A DNA stretch of 10,123 nt from Quisquiliibacterium sp. (GTDB lineage: Bacteria > Pseudomonadota > Gammaproteobacteria > Burkholderiales > Burkholderiaceae_E): the NCBI GenBank assembly GCA_030830765.1, contig JAURMJ010000359.1, forward strand, positions 1 through 10,123. The letters are read 5' to 3'. The notes below the pieces were generated by a model. It did not search any database, was not told the origin of the DNA, and saw only the letters and a list, made by a program, of their open reading frames with translations. The translations under genes were made by a program, and so were the position numbers. This document shows positions 1,677 through 9,933 of the stretch, piece by piece. Position 1 is the stretch's first letter; the number at the start of each line of letters is the position of its first letter.

Positions 1677-3149
1677 TCATTCCAGTCCGGCCTGCACCAG
1701 CTCCGCAGCCCGCAGCACTGCACGCGCCTTGTTCTCGGTTTCCTGCCATTCGCTTTCCGGGACCGAATCCGCGACCACGCCAGCTGCGGCCTGCACATAA
1801 AGCATGCCGTCCTTGACGATACCGGTACGGATCGCAATGGCCAGATCAAGATCACCGACGAAGGAAATGTAGCCGCATGCACCGCCATAGATGCCGCGCT
1901 TGGTCGGTTCCAGTTCGTCGATGATCTCCATCGCGCGGATCTTTGGAGCGCCCGAGAGCGTCCCTGCCGGAAAGGTCGCACGCAGCACTTCCAGCGGTCC
2001 CATACCGGGCTTGAGCTTGCCTTCGACGTTCGAGACGATATGCATCACATGTGAATACTTTTCGATGACCATCTGATCGGTAACCTTGACACTGCCGATC
2101 TCGGCGATGCGCCCAATGTCGTTGCGGGCCAGATCGATCAGCATCACATGCTCGGCGCGCTCCTTCGGATCAGCAAGCAGCTCAAGGGCAATTGCCTCAT
2201 CCTGCTCCGGGGTACCCCCGCGTTTTCGGGTCCCAGCAAGCGGACGAATCGTAATCCGGTCGCCATCAGGCTGATGCTCCTGGCGCACGAGGATCTCCGG
2301 CGAGGCACCGACCACGTGAAAATCCCCAAAGTTGTACAGGTACATATAGGGCGACGGATTGATTGAACGCAGCGCCCGGTACAAGGTCAGCGGTGAATCA
2401 CGGAACTGCTTGCGCAGCACCTGTCCGACCTGAACCTGCATCATGTCGCCGGCCATGATGTACTCCTTGGCCTTGAGCACGGCCTCCAGATACTTCTCCT
2501 TGGGGAAGTCTCTCTGGGTCGGCGTCTCGTAGCTGCCGCTTGAGGACGGGACATCGACGGGCATGCGCAGGCGAGTGCGCAGATCACGCAATCGGCGACT
2601 AGCCTTCTGGTACGCCTCGGGTTCGGCCGGATCAGCATAGACCATCAGGTAGATCTTGCCGGCGATGTTGTCGATGATTGCCAGTTCCTCGGTCAGTAGC
2701 AGCAGGATATCCGGCACACCAACGGGATCGGGCTTATTAACGCCGGCAAGCCGTGGTTCGATGTAGCGCACCGCATCGTATGCAAAGTAACCGGCCAAGC
2801 CGCCGCAAAAGCGTGGCAGCCCTGGGCGCACGGCAACTTTGAAACGCTTGCGATAAAGATCGACAAAGTCGAGCGGGTTGCCTTCGTAGGACTCGATGAC
2901 CTGGCCGTTGCGCACGACTTCGGCACCAGTTTGCGTCGAACGCAGCAGCGTGCTGGCCGGCAGACCAATGAATGAATAACGCCCGAATCGCTCACCACCG
3001 ACAACGGATTCGAGCAGAAAGCTATAGGGCTTGTGGGCCAGCTTCAGATACAAAGAAAGCGGCGTTTCGAGGTCTGCAAAGCACTCAACGAGCAGTGGAA
3101 TGCGATTGAATCCCTGTGCGGCAATCGCCTTGAATTCGATTTCGGTCAT
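1677..3149 (-). CDS. trpE: Anthranilate synthase component I
   Basis: TrpE converts chorismate to anthranilate using ammonia from TrpG, the committed step of tryptophan synthesis. The 490-residue protein has the N-terminal regulatory domain with LLES at 45-48 and a serine at 59. This exactly fits the LLES-x10-S motif associated with feedback inhibition by tryptophan. The chorismate-binding domain follows, with GASPEILVR (281-289), [10 protein letters not shown] (302-311), the [11 protein letters not shown] stretch (337-347), [13 protein letters not shown] (365-377) and [12 protein letters not shown] (392-403). The YGGACGYI segment (421-428) completes the active site. The ATG has a GGGA-type ribosome site (3160-3157). 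It follows a Trp-codon leader (trpL), so it appears to be controlled both by enzyme feedback and by leader translation. Confidence 0.97.
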
Positions 3150-3166
3150 GGATCTTTCCCGGAATT

Positions 3167-3235: not shown

Positions 3236-3284
3236 CAGCCGGCGCGGAGCCGGCTGCGCAAGCGTCAGGGACGCCAGCGCCAGC
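3236..3284 (-). promoter_or_regulatory. Trp attenuator-like alternative hairpins over the end of trpL
   Basis: Two stems can form in the mRNA and exclude each other. Stem 1:2 pairs 3284-3271, which contains Trp codons 19 and 21, with 3265-3253. It has a four-pair core GCGT/ACGC, a further GCGC/GCGC block and a GCT/AGC block, with one bulge and one mismatch. Stem 2:3 is a perfect 8-pair hairpin, CAGCCGGC (3256-3249) with GCCGGCTG (3243-3236), loop of 5. The two share bases 3256-3253. A ribosome waiting at the Trp codons would cover arm 1 and favour 2:3; one that reaches the stop would change the balance. This is the logic of classical trp attenuation. However, no U-tract terminator follows, so the final switching step is not clear. 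Confidence 0.6.
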
Positions 3285-3397
3285 AGCGCCAAGGGCGCCG
3301 GGTCGTCAGAGAAATGCGCTGTTGCAGGCAAGACATCGAATAGACCTGAGCTTGAGCGAAAAATGTTGACCAGTCGAGGCTCCGGGCTGCGCAAGCG
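3252..3397. repeat. 13-base direct repeat flanking trpL
   Basis: The 13-mer GGCTGCGCAAGCG (plus strand) occurs at 3252-3264 and again at 3385-3397, both in the gph-trpE gap. The neighbouring bases are also similar (CAGGAC versus TCAGGGAC). The copy near trpE makes up arm 2 of the attenuator stems. The other copy lies upstream of the leader peptide and forms a small hairpin of its own (CTGCG-CTTG-CGCAG on the mRNA strand). It may be a local duplication or a structural decoy; the role is not known. Confidence 0.5.
3265..3336 (-). CDS. trpL: trp operon leader peptide with three Trp codons
   Basis: This ORF of 23 codons begins with ATG at 3336-3334 and ends with TGA at 3267-3265. The last residues (13-23) read [11 protein letters not shown], with Trp at 16, 19 and 21. 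Tryptophan is rare, so three in six codons right before a stop, upstream of trpE, strongly indicates a sensing leader peptide. A weak AGG ribosome site lies 8 bases before the ATG. The stop falls in the loop of hairpin 1:2 described for the attenuator. In gamma- and alphaproteobacteria such leaders act by ribosome stalling when charged tRNA-Trp is scarce. The sequence resembles those by arrangement, not by peptide similarity that I can recall. It begins 76 bases after the gph stop codon. I saw no convincing promoter directly upstream, so the transcript may also come from the rpe-gph promoter. Confidence 0.75.
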
Positions 3398-3411: not shown

Positions 3412-4125
3412 TCAACTCCTGATCGGATCGATCAGAGTCCCGGCCTCGGAAAGCGTGGTGACTATAGCATCAACGTCCAGTGAATTCACATCAGCACCCT
3501 CGTTGTAGCCGTAGGGAACGGCCAGTACGGGCATGCCCGCGGCCCGTGCGGCCAGTGCATCATTGAGCGAATCACCAATCGCGAGAATTTGGTTCGCTGG
3601 CAATCCGAATTGCCGGCTGACATGCGTCATCGGCAAGGGATCTGGTTTTTTGCGCGACAAGCTGTCGCCCCCCACGACCAGCTCAAAGAACTTGCGAAGA
3701 CCAGTCGCCTGCAGAAGCGGCTCAGTGAAGCTCAGGGGTTTGTTCGTGACTACCGCTAATCGCAGGCCCATCGCGCTCATTGCCTCAAGCCCTTCCAGAA
3801 CGCCTGGGTAGACGCGTGAATGACGTCCGTTGACCTGCGTGTAGTGCATCATGAATGCGTCGATCGCAGGCCTGAACTGAGCTTCGGCCACCCTACCGTC
3901 AAGATGACCGGTCAATGCCCGATGCATCAGGACTTCGACCCCCTTACCTACGTATTGCGCGATCTGCTGCTGCTGCAAGGCGGTTCGCCCGAGATCACGA
4001 AACGCCAGATTGACCGCCTCGGCCAGGTCAGGGACGGTGTCCAGCAGCGTGCCATCCAGATCGATGATGACCGCACCCACTGCAAAACGGCGAGGCGCTG
4101 TGCCCGGCTGCAAACGACCGCTCAC
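3412..4125 (-). CDS. gph: Phosphoglycolate phosphatase, HAD family
   Basis: The protein (237 residues) is a haloacid-dehalogenase-type phosphatase that removes phosphate from 2-phosphoglycolate, a product of DNA 3'-end repair and of oxygenation reactions. It has all four HAD motifs: D22-L-D24-G-T with the nucleophile D22 and general acid D24, the motif II threonine T127 in VVTNKP, the lysine K160 in RKKPDP, and GDSLND (184-189) for magnesium binding. A helical cap domain lies between motifs I and II (about 35-105). The start is GTG, overlapping the rpe stop as GTGA, so translation is coupled. A second in-frame GTG at codon 16 is possible because many family members begin close to the first motif. 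rpe-gph-trpE is a common order in Burkholderiales. It appears intact. Confidence 0.94.
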
Positions 4126-4907: not shown

Positions 4908-5288
4908 TTGGCTGAACGCAAGTACGCAATCCAGATCTCGGTTGAAAGCCGCTATCTATCCGAACACTCCAAACCTGAGGCAGGCCGTTTCTCTTTTGCC
5001 TACACGATCAGGATCACCAATGTCGGGGCTGTTCCGGCACAACTGATCAGCCGACACTGGATCATCACAGATGCAGAAGGCAAGGTGATTGAAGTCAAGG
5101 GGCTGGGTGTCGTTGGCCAGCAACCGCTGTTGGCCCCCGGACAAAGCTTCGAATACAGCAGTGGCTGCCAATTGACCACGCCGGTCGGGTCAATGCATGG
5201 CAATTATTTCTTTGTGGCAGAGGACGGCGAGCGCTTCGAAGCCCCGATTGCCGAGTTCGGTCTGGCCATGCCACGATCACTGCACTGA
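4908..5288 (+). CDS. apaG: ApaG / DUF525 domain protein
   Basis: ApaG is a small single-domain protein with a fibronectin-III-like fold, 126 residues here, as usual. The family is linked genetically to magnesium/cobalt tolerance and Ap4A metabolism in enterobacteria, but its biochemical role is still unsettled. Recognisable segments are the N-terminal IQISVESRYLSEHS, the FAYTIRITNVG strand (29-39), the RHWIITDAEGK segment (49-59), the glycine-rich VKGLGVVGQQPLLAPGQ (63-79), YSSGCQLTTPVGSMHG (83-98) and a short C-terminal strand. Translation starts at TTG: it has a GGAAGG ribosome site (4897-4902) 5 bases upstream and gives the expected N-terminus, with no alternative ATG nearby. It is divergent from rpe and precedes mltA on the same strand. 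Confidence 0.93.
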   Translation: MAERKYAIQISVESRYLSEHSKPEAGRFSFAYTIRITNVGAVPAQLISRHWIITDAEGKVIEVKGLGVVGQQPLLAPGQSFEYSSGCQLTTPVGSMHGNYFFVAEDGERFEAPIAEFGLAMPRSLH

Positions 5289-5310
5289 GGTGCAGGCCGG
5301 GCTGCGCGCC

Positions 5311-5394
5311 CTACTTCGTGCCGCGCATCGTCCACCAGATCAGCAACAGTACGAAGATCAGGACTCCGGCAGCTTCGAGATAAATGACCCACAT
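5311..5394 (-). CDS. 27-residue single-span membrane protein
   Basis: This short ORF lies antisense between apaG and mltA. It begins MWVIYLEAAG, has a hydrophobic run (roughly residues 4-22, including VLIFVLLLIWW) and ends TMRGTK, so it should be a single transmembrane helix with a basic C-terminus in the cytoplasm (positive-inside rule). The ATG (5394-5392) has a CGGAG ribosome site 9 bases upstream, and a TAG stop follows. I recall tiny proteins of this form (MW..YLE.., hydrophobic core, WWT end) as unnamed betaproteobacterial ORFs, but cannot verify this here. Its start overlaps the start of mltA on the other strand. Function unknown; being next to mltA may suggest a cell-envelope role, which is only a guess. 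Confidence 0.7.
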   Translation of the reverse strand: MWVIYLEAAGVLIFVLLLIWWTMRGTK

Positions 5395-6484
5395 GATGAT
5401 CGACTCCGTTCGACGGCATTCTAACGTCCTGCTGATGACATTGACGGGTCTGCTGGCGGGTTGCGCACAGACCAGTGTGCCAGCCAGCGCAATCGACGCA
5501 GAGAATCGTCAGGACCGGCCGATCAGCACAGCAGAAAACGCCCGCAAGGGGTCACCAGCCAATCTTCCCGGGTGGCAGAGCGACGACCTGAAGGGTTTGT
5601 CTGATGCGATCGAGCAGCAATGCGGTATGCGCCGCCCGCCGCCTCCTTGGGAGGCACTTTGTGCAGAATTCGGCAGGCTGGATCCAGGGAAACTGCGCCA
5701 TTGGCTTGAACGACGTTTTTCGGTCGTTCCATTGCTGGCCAAGGATGGGTCGGCAACCGGTCTGGTCACTGGCTACTATGAGCCATTAGTGCACGGCAGC
5801 AGAACCCGGACCTCTTCGCGCCAGGTACCGCTTTACCGGAAGCCGGCAAAAGCGCTGCTGGCCCGCAAACCGACGCGCGCACAGATTGAAAACAGCGGCA
5901 TGCTGGCCGGCACGGAGCTCGTCTGGCTGGACGATCCGATTGAAGCATTCTTCCTTCAGATTCAAGGCTCGGGGCGCATCATGCTCAGGGAAGGCGGATC
6001 GATGCGGGTCGGATACGCCGCTGATAACGGATTGCGCTATCGAGCGATCGGTCGCGTGCTGATCGAAAGAGGCGCGATTCCGGCCCCTGAGATCAGTGCA
6101 CAAACGATTCGCAATTGGCTTCGTGCAAACCCTGAGCAAGCACTTGAAGTCATGCAGCAGAATCCGCGATACGTGTTTTTCCGGGAACTTCGAGGGATCG
6201 CGACTGACGCAGGTCCACTCGGGTCACTCGGCGTCTCCCTGACGGCAGGACGATCTGTCGCCATTGACCGCAGCCGGATTGCGCCAGGATCGATTCTGTT
6301 CCTGGACACCAGCGACCCGATCCGGGGAGCCCCCTTGCGGCGGGTTGTCATTGCCCAGGATACTGGCGGTGCGATCGTCGGCCCGATTCGGGTCGACCTT
6401 TTCTGGGGAAGTGGGGAAAAGGCCGGCGAGGCCGCCGGTCAGATGAAGCAGGACGGACGCCTCTGGCTTTTGCAAGCCCATTGA
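5384..6484 (+). CDS. mltA: Membrane-bound lytic murein transglycosylase A (lipoprotein)
   Basis: MltA cleaves the N-acetylmuramyl-beta-1,4-N-acetylglucosamine bond of peptidoglycan, forming 1,6-anhydromuramic acid, during wall turnover. The 366-residue ORF starts with a lipoprotein signal: basic VRRHS, hydrophobic VLLMTLTGLL, then lipobox LLAGC with C27 as the lipidated residue, so it should be anchored in the outer membrane facing the periplasm. The MltA barrel domain follows (about 110-275; TGYYEP at 129-134, FFLQIQGSG at 189-197). The C-terminal 3D-type double-psi barrel comes last (about 280-366), with AQDTGGAI (324-331, D326) and RVDLFWGSG (336-344, D338), the conserved acidic positions. 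In-frame ATGs at 5393 and 5396 are equally likely starts and give a tidier signal peptide; no ribosome site decides. Intact. Confidence 0.93.
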   Translation: MTHMMIDSVRRHSNVLLMTLTGLLAGCAQTSVPASAIDAENRQDRPISTAENARKGSPANLPGWQSDDLKGLSDAIEQQCGMRRPPPPWEALCAEFGRLDPGKLRHWLERRFSVVPLLAKDGSATGLVTGYYEPLVHGSRTRTSSRQVPLYRKPAKALLARKPTRAQIENSGMLAGTELVWLDDPIEAFFLQIQGSGRIMLREGGSMRVGYAADNGLRYRAIGRVLIERGAIPAPEISAQTIRNWLRANPEQALEVMQQNPRYVFFRELRGIATDAGPLGSLGVSLTAGRSVAIDRSRIAPGSILFLDTSDPIRGAPLRRVVIAQDTGGAIVGPIRVDLFWGSGEKAGEAAGQMKQDGRLWLLQAH

Positions 6485-6488
6485 TGAC

Positions 6489-6507
6489 CAGCAGGGCCGC
6501 CCTGCTG
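6489..6507. terminator. Hairpin between convergent mltA and dsbC
   Basis: A perfect 8-base stem, CAGCAGGG and CCCTGCTG, with a CCG loop lies 4 bases after the mltA stop and 4 bases before the dsbC stop (reading plus strand). Its placement between two convergent genes fits a shared bidirectional terminator. No U-tract follows on either strand, so termination may be inefficient, or the hairpin may protect the mRNA 3' ends. Confidence 0.5.
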
Positions 6508-6511
6508 ACGC

Positions 6512-7267
6512 TCAAGGCTTTGAGTATTCCGCAAGCATCTTCTCAAACTGCTCAGCAGGCACGTAGCCTTGCAGACGCCGCCCGTTGCTGAAGAATACGG
6601 TTGGGGTTGCCGAAACACCGTATTTTTCGGCTAATGCCCGAATCTTGGGTAAGGCTGTTTCACAGGTGCCGGCATTGTCTGGGACCTTGCCGCTGATCAG
6701 CAGATCGTTCCAGGCGGTCGCCTTATCCTTCGCACACAGGGCCTTCAAGGCTTTCGTTTCCGAATCGGGAGACAAGAAAGCCACTGTGTAGGTGTAGATC
6801 GTGACATCCTTCAAGGCAGCCATCTCGCGACGCATCTTCTTGCAATAGCCGCAATTGGCATCCTCAAAGACGGCGAAGACCCGCTTGCCGTTGCCGTGGA
6901 CCTGTTTGATCGCCAGATCAAGCGGCAGATCCTTGAAATTGATCGCAAGAATTTCCTCGGTGCGCTCACGCGTCAGGTTGCGATTCGAACCCAGCTCGAG
7001 CAGATTGCCTTCAATGAATGCGAACTGACCTTTCTCGTCTACGTAAATCAGGTTGCTGCCGATACGAACCTCGTAGATGCCAGCCAGCGGGGTCTTGCGA
7101 ACCTCCTCAACCTTGTAGCGACCCTTGAGCCAGCTATCGACAGCCTTGCGAACGGTATCCGCTGCGTCGGCCGCATGGACAGAGGCCATCCCCGCAAGGC
7201 TCAAAGCCATGGCAGCGGCGATTTTTTTCAGACCATTGAATCTGGCCAGGGTGCGTAAAAATTTCAT
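6512..7267 (-). CDS. dsbC: Thiol:disulfide interchange protein DsbC (periplasmic isomerase)
   Basis: DsbC rearranges wrong disulfides in periplasmic proteins as a V-shaped homodimer and is kept reduced by DsbD. Numbering from the ATG at 7267 (251 residues), there is a Sec signal peptide: basic KFLRTLARFNGLKK, hydrophobic AAAMALSLAG, with likely cleavage after SVHA at about 32. The N-terminal dimerisation domain spans about 35-100. The thioredoxin-like domain carries the active site CGYC (139-142), the cis-proline P222 in SATPTVFF, and a second cysteine pair (C178, C202) as in other DsbC proteins. The start has an AGAGG ribosome site 5 bases upstream; an upstream ATG at 7291 would overlap the previous gene and is less likely. 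It lies 10 bases after the hydroxylase gene, so both are probably one operon. Confidence 0.94.
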   Translation of the reverse strand: MKFLRTLARFNGLKKIAAAMALSLAGMASVHAADAADTVRKAVDSWLKGRYKVEEVRKTPLAGIYEVRIGSNLIYVDEKGQFAFIEGNLLELGSNRNLTRERTEEILAINFKDLPLDLAIKQVHGNGKRVFAVFEDANCGYCKKMRREMAALKDVTIYTYTVAFLSPDSETKALKALCAKDKATAWNDLLISGKVPDNAGTCETALPKIRALAEKYGVSATPTVFFSNGRRLQGYVPAEQFEKMLAEYSKP

Positions 7268-7277
7268 TCGAACCTCT

Positions 7278-8510
7278 TCATGACACGGCATGGGCGATCA
7301 GACGTCGCTTGAGCCATGGAAAACTTTCAAGTGCCCGCCAACCTAGGTCGCGAGCTCGCTGGACCGGGTACGCCAACATTGGCCAATCAGATGCGGACTC
7401 GGGATCGAATAGGCGTTGAAGACCATCCGTCACCAGCTTGATGGATTGAACTGGTTCGCGCCGTGCACGTTCATAGCGCCGCAGCAGCATCGGATCGCCA
7501 AGATCACGGAAAGGTTCACGGCTTCGAATCACGTCAAGCAGGGTTTGAAGGTCACCGAAGCCAAGATTCATTCCCTGCCCCGCCAGAGGATGCACCACAT
7601 GCGCAGCATCACCAATCAGCGCGACACGCGACGCAACCAGTTGCGGGACCTGAATCAGGCGCAGTGCAAAGGTCTGCTGCGGCGTAATCATCGACATCGA
7701 GCCGAGAACGTTGCCACTGAGCTCAGCGACCCGACTCGCCATCGCTGTGGAATCTAACGTCTGCAGCGTTTCAGCAAGCTGAGTCGGCGCGGACCAGACC
7801 ATGCTGCAGCGATTGCCCGGCAACGGCAACAAAGCAACGATGCCGTGATCTCCGAACCATTGATAGGCGCAATCACGATGCGGCTTTTCAATCTCGAAGT
7901 TTGCAACGACCGCCTGCTGCGGGTATTGCCGGATATCAGCCTGGATCGCGAGCAACTCACGTAGCTGCGAATGAGCGCCATCAGCACCGATCACCAGATG
8001 CGCACGAAGCTGCCGACCATCTTCCAAGGTCAGCAGCGCGTCTGGTTTTTCCTGCGGGTCGATCGAAGCAAGGGATGATTCAAACTTTGTCACGCCGGCA
8101 AAATCGATGGCCCGATTCAATGCATCGATCAGGTTCCGGTTTTCGACGATCTGAGCCAATGAATCGACGCAAGACTCATAGGCTGAAAAATGCAATTCCG
8201 ATTCGACTGGCCCGGCCTGCGGGTAAACACGCATGTCGAAGACCGGCGCAATGCGAGACTGGTCCATCGCGTCCCAGACCCGCAAGCCTTGCAGCAATTG
8301 GCGACTGGCCTGTGAAAGAGCGAAGACGCGTGAATCCCAGTCAGAGACCTTGCCTGCCTGCCCGTCCGGATCCGCATGAGAACCTCCATCGGGCCCAACG
8401 ATCCCCACCCGCAATCCGCTCTGCGCCATGCCGAGTGCTGCGGCAGCACCGATCGCACCGCGGCCGATGACGACGACGTCGTAGGAGGTTGCTGCCGACA
8501 CAGGGTACAT
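7278..8510 (-). CDS. FAD-dependent hydroxylase, UbiH/UbiF/VisC/COQ6 family
   Basis: This is probably one of the aromatic-ring hydroxylases of ubiquinone synthesis, a class A flavoprotein monooxygenase using NAD(P)H and oxygen. From the ATG at 8510 it has 410 residues, typical of the family. Motifs seen: the Rossmann GRGAIG (16-21), DSRVFALSQAS near 59-69 (family signature region), IGADG (174-178) of the DG motif, and GDAAHVVHPLAGQGMNLG (300-317), the second FAD/ribityl motif and the most diagnostic segment. Which ring position it acts on (UbiH, UbiF, UbiI or UbiM-like) cannot be told by eye, so no symbol is given. An ATG at 8519 is an alternative. The reading frame stays open to 8702, but the extra residues are not family-like. 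It is followed by dsbC and is divergent from the WYL regulator. Confidence 0.88.
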   Translation of the reverse strand: MYPVSAATSYDVVVIGRGAIGAAAALGMAQSGLRVGIVGPDGGSHADPDGQAGKVSDWDSRVFALSQASRQLLQGLRVWDAMDQSRIAPVFDMRVYPQAGPVESELHFSAYESCVDSLAQIVENRNLIDALNRAIDFAGVTKFESSLASIDPQEKPDALLTLEDGRQLRAHLVIGADGAHSQLRELLAIQADIRQYPQQAVVANFEIEKPHRDCAYQWFGDHGIVALLPLPGNRCSMVWSAPTQLAETLQTLDSTAMASRVAELSGNVLGSMSMITPQQTFALRLIQVPQLVASRVALIGDAAHVVHPLAGQGMNLGFGDLQTLLDVIRSREPFRDLGDPMLLRRYERARREPVQSIKLVTDGLQRLFDPESASDWPMLAYPVQRARDLGWRALESFPWLKRRLIAHAVS

Positions 8511-8517
8511 GCACTTC

Positions 8518-8523
8518 ATTATA
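8518..8523 (-). promoter_or_regulatory. Possible -10 box directly before the flavin hydroxylase start
   Basis: A consensus TATAAT on the minus strand ends 7 bases before the ATG at 8510. If used, transcription would begin at or next to the A of that ATG, giving a leaderless mRNA. That would explain why no ribosome site is seen. The -35 region at normal spacing does not match consensus, so the promoter would be weak or need an activator, perhaps the divergent regulator. Confidence 0.35.
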
Positions 8524-8561
8524 GGGGCACGTGGACATCGGCCACTGCCCGTAATAGCCTT

Positions 8562-8578
8562 GCCAGGTCCTTGCTGGC
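8562..8578. promoter_or_regulatory. Small inverted repeat upstream of the WYL regulator
   Basis: GCCAG and CTGGC form a 5-base inverted repeat with a 7-base centre in the 86-base divergent gap, 18 bases before the regulator's ATG. Regulators of this type often bind near their own start, so it is a candidate operator. Repeats this short occur by chance often, so the call is weak. Confidence 0.2.
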
Positions 8579-8596
8579 GACCTTTCCAGGTGGAGT

Positions 8597-9568
8597 ATGA
8601 ATCGCACCGAACGTCTTTATCGCATTGACCAGTTGCTGCATCAACGTGGTCTGGTGAGCCGCGCCGAGCTGCTCTGCGATCTGGAAATCTCTTGGGCCAC
8701 ACTCAAGCGGGATTTGGCCTATCTGCGCGATCGGCTCAATGCGCCGATCGTGTTCGACAGCGATCGCGGTGGCTACCGCTTCGATCAGAACCCGTTGGGC
8801 CCCCAATATGAGCTGCCTGGGCTATGGTTCAACGCTCAGGAAATTCTTGCGTTGCTGACAATGCATCGACTTCTGGATGAACTGGACAGCGGTGGCCTGC
8901 TGGGCCCGCAGGTCGGCCCCTTGATGGCCAGGCTCAAGGGTCTGCTCGAAAATGCACCGGGAGATGCCGAACAGGTGATGCAAAGAGTCAAGATCGTGAC
9001 GGCGCATAACCGGCCGGTCACTCCAGCCTGGTTCGAAATCGTGGGAATCGCCCTGATGCAACGGAAGCGGCTCCAGATTCAGTATTTCACCCGGACACGC
9101 AATGAAAGCAATCGACGCGAAATTTCACCGCAACGAATCGTTCACTATCGCAATGCCTGGTATCTGGATGCCTGGTGCCATCGCAGCGACGCGTTGAGAA
9201 TCTTTGCGCTCGACGCCATTCAAGAGGCCCACTTGCTTGGAAGCATCGCCGATGAGGTTCCAACGGACGAACTGGATCGGGAGGTCGCAGCTGGTTATGG
9301 CATCTTCCGCGGACAGCAGCTGCAGTGGGCGGTGCTGCATTTCAGCGCCGATGCCGCCCGCTGGGTCAGTGCTGAAGTCTGGCACCCGCAGCAGCAAGGC
9401 AAGACACTTGAAGATGGCAGTTTTGAGTTGAGAGTGCCCTACTCGGCGTCACCCGAACTCGAAATGGATATTCTGCGCCATGCTGAGCATGTCAGAGTGA
9501 TCGCACCGGATGCACTGCGCGACCAGATTGCAAGGCGACTGCGCAATGCCGCACAAAGCTACCGGTAG
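8597..9568 (+). CDS. HTH/WYL-domain transcriptional regulator (YafY type)
   Basis: The 323-residue protein has an N-terminal winged helix-turn-helix of the HTH_11/DeoR-like kind (about 3-62; helices in SRAELLCDLEISWATLKRDL and a wing ending GGYRF). A linker region follows (about 75-135). The WYL domain comes next (about 145-212), with the naming triplet W188-Y189-L190 in NAWYLDAW and the flanking ISPQRIVHYR and RIFALDAI. A WCX-like C-terminal part (about 240-318) closes the protein. WYL domains are Sm-like folds thought to sense ligands such as nucleic acids or nucleotides; many members repress or activate neighbouring genes. The ATG has an AGG ribosome site 6 bases upstream. It is divergent from the hydroxylase-dsbC pair and 47 bases upstream of a ferredoxin gene, so either could be a target. 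The ligand cannot be told from the sequence. Confidence 0.9.
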   Translation: MNRTERLYRIDQLLHQRGLVSRAELLCDLEISWATLKRDLAYLRDRLNAPIVFDSDRGGYRFDQNPLGPQYELPGLWFNAQEILALLTMHRLLDELDSGGLLGPQVGPLMARLKGLLENAPGDAEQVMQRVKIVTAHNRPVTPAWFEIVGIALMQRKRLQIQYFTRTRNESNRREISPQRIVHYRNAWYLDAWCHRSDALRIFALDAIQEAHLLGSIADEVPTDELDREVAAGYGIFRGQQLQWAVLHFSADAARWVSAEVWHPQQQGKTLEDGSFELRVPYSASPELEMDILRHAEHVRVIAPDALRDQIARRLRNAAQSYR

Positions 9569-9584
9569 ACCGGGAACAGGTACC

Positions 9585-9614
9585 ATGAGCAACCCAAGCA
9601 CCGATCCAATCTGA
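9585..9614 (+). other. Nine-codon upstream ORF before the Rieske gene
   Basis: ATG at 9585 has an AGG ribosome site 4 bases upstream and encodes only MSNPSTDPI before TGA at 9612-9614. One base later comes the ATG of the ferredoxin gene, which lacks its own visible ribosome site. This is the geometry for reinitiation, so the mini-ORF may supply ribosomes to the gene. It could also be the broken start of an older, longer N-terminus, or chance. Confidence 0.3.
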
Positions 9615-9615
9615 C

Positions 9616-9933
9616 ATGACTCAATGGATTCCAGTCGCCTCGCAAGACGATCTGTTTGACGGCGCGAGTCTCTCGGTCGACGCGCAGGGCAGTGAAGTCG
9701 CCCTGTTTCAGATCGAGGGCACCGTCCACGCCATCGACAATATCTGCTCCCATGGTGATGCTCGGTTATGCGACGGCTTTTTGCTTGATTATGAAATCGA
9801 ATGCCCGTTCCATCAGGGGCGCTTCGATCTACGCACCGGAGCGCCGACCTGTGAACCAGTGACTGCGCCAGTCAAAGTCTGGTCCGTGAAAGTTGACGAC
9901 GGCCTCATCTGGATCCAGGTTGATTCTGACTGA
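9616..9933 (+). CDS. Rieske [2Fe-2S] ferredoxin, dioxygenase-ferredoxin type
   Basis: The 105-residue soluble protein has the Rieske cluster motif C44-S-H46 followed by 16 residues and C63-P-F-H66; two cysteines and two histidines bind the 2Fe-2S cluster. Length and the YEIECPFHQGRFDLRTGAP segment match the stand-alone ferredoxins that carry electrons from a reductase to ring-hydroxylating dioxygenases (NahAb/BphF-like) rather than the large oxygenase subunits or NirD. No oxygenase or reductase gene is beside it, so its partner is unknown. It follows the WYL regulator by 47 bases and is probably co-transcribed with it. An imperfect 5-base hairpin (9941-9954) follows the stop, but no clear terminator. 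Confidence 0.9.
   Translation: MTQWIPVASQDDLFDGASLSVDAQGSEVALFQIEGTVHAIDNICSHGDARLCDGFLLDYEIECPFHQGRFDLRTGAPTCEPVTAPVKVWSVKVDDGLIWIQVDSD

Follow-up and report, generated by a model that had tools for sequence, protein, structure and literature searches.

We analysed a 10,123-nt stretch of DNA (the window) from Quisquiliibacterium, a genus that the NCBI taxonomy places within Burkholderiaceae. The source genome assembly is incomplete (72%, 441 contigs). The minus strand of the window carries, in this order, an rpe-like ORF, gph, trpE, and then trpG- and trpD-like ORFs; the rpe-, trpG-, and trpD-like labels are what we take these flanking ORFs to be from their sequences. Pfam assigned an ApaG domain, MltA, a DsbC-type isomerase, an FAD-binding protein, a WYL-domain regulator, and a Rieske protein to positions 4908-9933, which are ordinary neighbours. 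The gap between gph and trpE is 262 nt long and contains a short ORF that ends 115 nt before trpE. The features, in window coordinates, are as follows.

1677..3149, minus strand: trpE (TIGR00564, 541 bits, cut-off 517.7)
3154..3160, minus strand: GGGAAAG, likely ribosome-binding site of trpE (from sequence and predicted accessibility)
3236..3256, minus strand: hairpin 2, a perfect 8-pair stem without a U-run after it (-15.7 kcal/mol)
3253..3284, minus strand: hairpin 1, in which the strand with the Trp codons pairs with sequence beyond the stop (-19.0 kcal/mol)
3265..3336, minus strand: leader peptide ORF of 23 codons with Trp codons 16, 19, and 21 (from sequence, shuffles, and relatives)
3412..4125, minus strand: gph (NF009695, 264.6 bits, cut-off 225)
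3461..3469, minus strand: TGCTATAGT, candidate extended -10 promoter that lies in gph and precedes the leader ATG by 130 nt

A preliminary description of this DNA had noticed a 23-codon ORF ending with three Trp codons upstream of trpE, and such an ORF is indeed present at 3336..3265 on the minus strand. When the 262-nt gap was shuffled 2000 times with its dinucleotides preserved, no shuffle contained an ATG ORF with at least three Trp in its last 10 codons, and when any start codon was allowed the same Trp criterion was reached at a frequency of 0.0005 in gap shuffles. The leader was present in all seven Quisquiliibacterium genomes fetched, with ends such as WRSWRWWCWRH, and none of the other six peptide ends is as diverged as that of the window. 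In the nearest other genus, that of Zeimonas arvi, 10 of the 11 members fetched have it as well. One locus of the Zeimonas genus (L193, with its copy L118) has lost the leader together with the gap, and gph runs straight to trpE there.

TrpE matches were obtained in 56 of 61, 269 of 300, and 63 of 74 genomes of three overlapping sets; at least 80 contigs with TrpE were kept, and the upstream DNA was examined for part of the sets and for 120 further stretches. Counting one row per genome, 123 of 178 genomes have a leader-like Trp ORF ahead of trpE, and these represent 28 of 41 families; 4.9 such genomes were expected, and 1 was found on the reverse strand; by the same rule none was found in 55 genomes and 13 families. 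This rule counted at least three apparently spurious ORFs (L016, L028, L030) and missed leaders that are visible by eye (L024, L202, L203) or lie further upstream (L039, L042, L045). A set of 186 distinct upstream regions is biased to near relatives by TrpE (79 of the 80 loci listed are included); among them, an ATG ORF whose last ten codons include two or more Trp occurred in 126 (3.8 expected from shuffles) and one with three or more in 90 (0.25 expected). The reverse strand of the 186 regions gave 5 and 1, respectively, and a control stretch of gph further upstream gave 14 and 1 of 182. Seven loci with doubtful Trp ORFs had been removed from the leader list and five leaders had been set by hand before the counts that draw on this list. 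TGG triplets were distributed over the three frames as 503:13:13 in 148 leaders, a bias that is descriptive only because the leaders were selected for in-frame Trp. The search for relatives lacking the ORF or its Trp codons thus turned out in favour of a leader peptide (123 of 178 genomes), and the 0 of 2000 shuffles, 28 of 41 families, and 7 of 7 genus members bear out the Trp-codon leader peptide that had been proposed upstream of trpE. We are highly confident from these comparisons that the ORF at 3265..3336 is a real leader peptide belonging to a known kind of regulation. Since a Trp-rich ORF is kept before trpE in many relatives, the leader very probably senses the supply of tryptophan.

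Most of the leaders start without a ribosome-binding site. The mean strength of the ribosome-binding site was -0.72 kcal/mol at leader starts versus -5.04 kcal/mol at trpE and -1.75 kcal/mol at random upstream places; the starts of the 148 leaders thus fall short even of random positions. The leader start of the window also has a weak site (-3.2).

An extended -10 motif, TGnTATAGT, was found at most 260 nt upstream of 116 of the 148 distinct leaders. Among the matches listed, the motif lies in frame within gph on an ATA codon at 68 of 73 gph ends, and ATA accounts for 78 of 2323 Ile codons in trpE of the same loci and for 107 of 859 elsewhere in the same gph ends, where it is commoner than in trpE. 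Part of this extra ATA in gph is, by eye, a second repeated ATA in CTATACA, ~18 nt upstream at the -35 position. The -35-like CTATACA with the second ATA is often seen in Oxalobacteraceae. The D-x-I-V site of gph codes for Ile in 121 of 244 distinct loci, the remainder being 80 without the motif found and 43 with another residue. This Ile is encoded by ATA in 105 of 108 loci with a leader versus 6 of 13 without (Fisher p 3e-6, with relatedness ignored). Of the nine Ile codons in gph of the window, the one at the motif is the sole ATA, and in L193 and L118, where the leader is missing, the codon at the promoter site is ATC. A plain sigma-70 scan of the window did not flag 3461..3469, so that the case for a promoter comes from comparison among relatives, and the extended -10 motif in gph is a candidate promoter of the leader.

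The two hairpins beside the leader were compared with chance expectation. As had been described, the second hairpin overlaps the first, has a perfect stem of eight pairs, and has four bases in common with it, which are CAGC. The stop codon had been placed in the loop of hairpin 1; in the predicted fold this holds for the T (3267) of TGA, which lies in a 3-nt loop, but the G and A belong to the stem. A stem of eight pairs, as in hairpin 2, is somewhat unusual, being reached by 2.0% of 1000 shuffles of the 101-nt region and by 3.7% of those of the whole gap. The folding of the gap is 1.58 sd below shuffles, and 14 of 200 shuffles fold as well. In the window, the strand with the Trp codons paired with the 25 nt that follow the stop at a p value of 0.48 versus shuffles; hairpin 1 is present, and the comparison with a shuffled partner gives no sign of a function. 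The best partner for a matching 3:4 helix in the window gave p 0.21 versus shuffles. By simple geometry, which was not computed, a ribosome stalled on Trp-16 would block the outer part of hairpin 1 and leave hairpin 2 freer. In the logic of E. coli, a hairpin that is eased by a stall at the first Trp codon is excluded from the role of terminator, and hairpin 2 could thus act only as an antiterminator.

Structure after the leader stop is at the shuffle level across the genus (mean z of -0.6 to +0.4 for segments starting 0-30 nt past the stop). The mean p for the stop-codon hairpin was 0.37 in the genus, 0.21 in the Zeimonas genus, and 0.26 in other members of the family; elsewhere it was 0.22 in Oxalobacteraceae, 0.55 in the AWPWR group, and 0.42 in the short-gap loci described below. 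A conserved set of hairpins in the genus was considered and found no support: RNAalifold yielded little when run with 7 and with 10 leaders, and the z profiles were at the shuffle level. Comparison of the gph-trpE gap across relatives, by which the preliminary description proposed to check its reading, showed the Trp codons to be kept but no clearly conserved stems. Its view of the two hairpins as an attenuator is not upheld for the Quisquiliibacterium window, where the genus structure does not rise above shuffles and a U-run is absent. Against chance expectation, the ORF is striking and the hairpins are not.

An intrinsic terminator with a U-run before trpE was absent from the window and from all 28 loci of its family. 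In loci of the Oxalobacteraceae type, a hairpin with a U-run begins 3-17 nt (median 13) past the leader stop in 28 of 72, and the same scan found none near the stop in the remaining 44. In family f4, all seven loci with a leader called have a hairpin with a U-run 18-77 nt past the leader stop. Judged from these elements, the arrangement in f4 and in the 28 of 72 Oxalobacteraceae-type loci is classical attenuation. A U-run terminator was found in 1 of 64 short-gap loci. The region from the leader stop to trpE is mildly C-rich, with a C/G ratio of 1.29 in the window and a genus mean of 1.32, compared with 1.03 in gph. The ratio is equal or higher in groups with terminators or other switches (1.58 and 2.14). 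Since C-richness also occurs where other switches exist, it permits Rho action at the leader of the window but is no specific pointer to it.

Pairing between the leader and the trpE ribosome-binding site was examined in a short-gap set of 64 loci from 20 families, in which 27-87 nt separate the leader from trpE. The 45-nt segment that precedes the first Trp codon paired with its own trpE site at -15.95 versus -11.48 with the sites of other families (sd 0.72, z -6.2). Other segments of the short-gap set showed no such preference (Trp codons to stop, z -0.9; after the stop, +2.1; further upstream, +0.35). Four loci of f1, f3, and f4 were excluded from this test. One locus included in the set (L096, family f45) looks like an out-of-frame gph ORF; when this doubtful family was left out, z was -6.1 in 19 families. 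Individually, 25 of 64 loci and, by median, 9 of 20 families reached p <0.05 versus shuffled sites, so that the claim of pairing belongs to the set rather than to single loci. An analysis of 29 short-gap loci pointed in the same direction (own -16.9 versus swapped -12.1; 8 of 29 under 0.05). Anchored counts of compensatory pairs gave some in most families and many broken pairs too. Long complementarity between the leader start and the trpE site is visible in L067, L074, L082, L085, L089, L095, L112, L230, and other short-gap loci. A ribosome at the first Trp codon is predicted to open the trpE site in 15 of 20 families, mostly slightly: the opening is at least 0.05 in 9 of 20 families, and, relative to the stop state, the site gains 0.044 on average (s.e. 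0.016). With a queued second ribosome, the site is predicted to be more open than in the stop state in 18 of 20 families. We infer from these predictions that the short-gap arrangement may be translational attenuation.

Within the genus of the window, the Zeimonas genus, the Oxalobacteraceae, and the AWPWR groups, leaders paired with their own trpE sites no better than with swapped ones. For the family of the window, the leader strand against the trpE site gave z -1.1 and five other segments gave -0.9 to +0.4. The leader of the window pairs less well with its own trpE site (-13.3) than with the sites of other loci (-16.1), and its trpE site is predicted to be open at ~0.65 in three ribosome states and at 0.60 with a queued ribosome. 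A sequestered trpE site in the window was rejected on the basis of this swap-level pairing and openness. In Oxalobacteraceae (the L113-L192 region), the trpE site pairs beyond swaps with the DNA just upstream (z -4.8), which is perhaps a local hairpin.

The Trp repressor family (TrpR) was found in none of the 61 genomes searched, and the search was positive in the control, E. coli, and also in Bacillus subtilis. Rfam 15 gave no match at the gathering score in the window and six relatives; the best weak match was tfoR, with 15.7 bits against a cut-off of 70. No betaproteobacterial trpE leader peptide was found in the titles and abstract openings searched, which is not a claim of absence from print, and PMC10219788 contains no occurrence of trp.

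Taken together, the window probably contains a genuine Trp-sensing leader of the trpE operon, with its promoter in gph, in which stalling raises trpE expression and either Rho or a U-less hairpin ends transcription. Transcription would start at the gph motif, and a ribosome would translate the leader. When charged tRNA-Trp is scarce, the ribosome would stall on the Trp codons and trpE expression would rise; when Trp is plentiful, the ribosome would reach the leader stop and expression would fall. The fall here would most likely be a premature end of transcription between the leader and trpE, without a U-run, through Rho or a U-less hairpin, and hairpins 1 and 2 may take part in the switch. Besides the leader counts, the U-run terminators behind leaders of this kind in relatives and the lack of TrpR speak for this reading; the 55 genomes and 13 families in which the rule finds no leader, the missing U-run in the family of the window, the shuffle-level structure in the genus, and the weak leader start site speak against it. 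The locus is Trp-attenuator-like, yet it is not filed as a classical trp transcription attenuator because a U-run terminator was sought and is absent.

An attenuator of the E. coli type, in which hairpin 1 is the 1:2 helix, hairpin 2 is the 2:3 antiterminator, and a further 3:4 helix terminates transcription, would account for the layout of hairpin 1, which carries the Trp codons on its 5' arm and the stop at its tip, and for the CAGC common to the two hairpins. The hairpin with a U-run in some Oxalobacteraceae moreover begins 3-17 nt past the stop, where hairpin 2 starts. Nevertheless, this explanation is unlikely for the window, since the U-run is absent from the window and its family, neither hairpin 1 (p 0.48) nor the best 3:4 partner (p 0.21) stands out from shuffles, and the hairpins are not clearly conserved in the genus. 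Translational attenuation, in which part of the leader would sequester the ribosome-binding site of trpE and a ribosome stalled on the Trp codons would release it, draws on the z of -6.2 in the 20 short-gap families, but it is improbable here, because z is -1.1 in the family of the window, the window's own pairing is weaker than swaps, and its trpE site is predicted to be ~0.65 open whatever the ribosome state. The leader might also be a decaying remnant that has lost its switch and is poorer in Trp codons than the leaders of most relatives. Its peptide end is the most diverged among the seven genus members, neither a terminator nor sequestration was found in the window, and the assembly is 72% complete. 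However, the ORF is intact with three in-frame Trp codons, the promoter motif is retained on the sole ATA of gph, and chance reproduced the ORF in 0 of 2000 shuffles, which makes decay very improbable.

The preferred reading of the window, a Trp-sensing leader with a U-less, perhaps Rho-dependent output, can be placed in an order-wide view to which we give an even chance. An old Trp leader of Burkholderiales would have kept its sensor and exchanged its output, which would be U-run terminators in some groups, a helix at the trpE site in ~20 families, and a U-less, perhaps Rho-dependent, end of transcription in the family of the window. The sensing part kept would comprise the Trp codons, the weak start site, and a promoter often hidden in gph. 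The leader is a concrete candidate for Trp sensing in a large bacterial order that yielded no TrpR in the 61 genomes searched, and it explains a short ORF that gene callers would overlook. One sensor peptide coupled to different switches would be a natural series, and the short-gap relatives, as translational attenuators that sense an amino acid, would be unusual. What deserves pursuit is this order-wide view, in which a single peptide has been combined with interchangeable switches.

The trpL of E. coli, which precedes trpE, is a short ORF whose Trp codons are clustered and whose stop lies at the tip of a hairpin that has these codons in its 5' arm. The leader of the window resembles it in the clustered Trp codons before trpE and in the stop at the tip of the Trp-codon hairpin. 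Unlike E. coli trpL, it has no U-run terminator, its Trp codons are at the very end of the ORF, its start site is weak, and TrpR is lacking from the 61 genomes searched. The trpL-trpE(G) locus of Sinorhizobium meliloti is described as having a leader ORF before trpE only, with attenuation as its control (PMC7298713). The leader ORF of the window is likewise upstream of trpE, but the S. meliloti transcript starts at the leader ATG (PMC7298713), whereas the candidate promoter of the window is 130 nt upstream in gph. In Actinobacteria, conserved leader peptides without terminators have been described and Rho has been proposed, and the regulatory codons of the LEU element pair with the Shine-Dalgarno box (PMC1262725). 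The window shares with these leaders a conserved peptide with attenuator parts missing, but they serve Cys and Leu genes in another phylum (PMC1262725). Moreover, the LEU element, as presented there, pairs the codons themselves, whereas the pairing strand of the short-gap Burkholderiales precedes the Trp codons.
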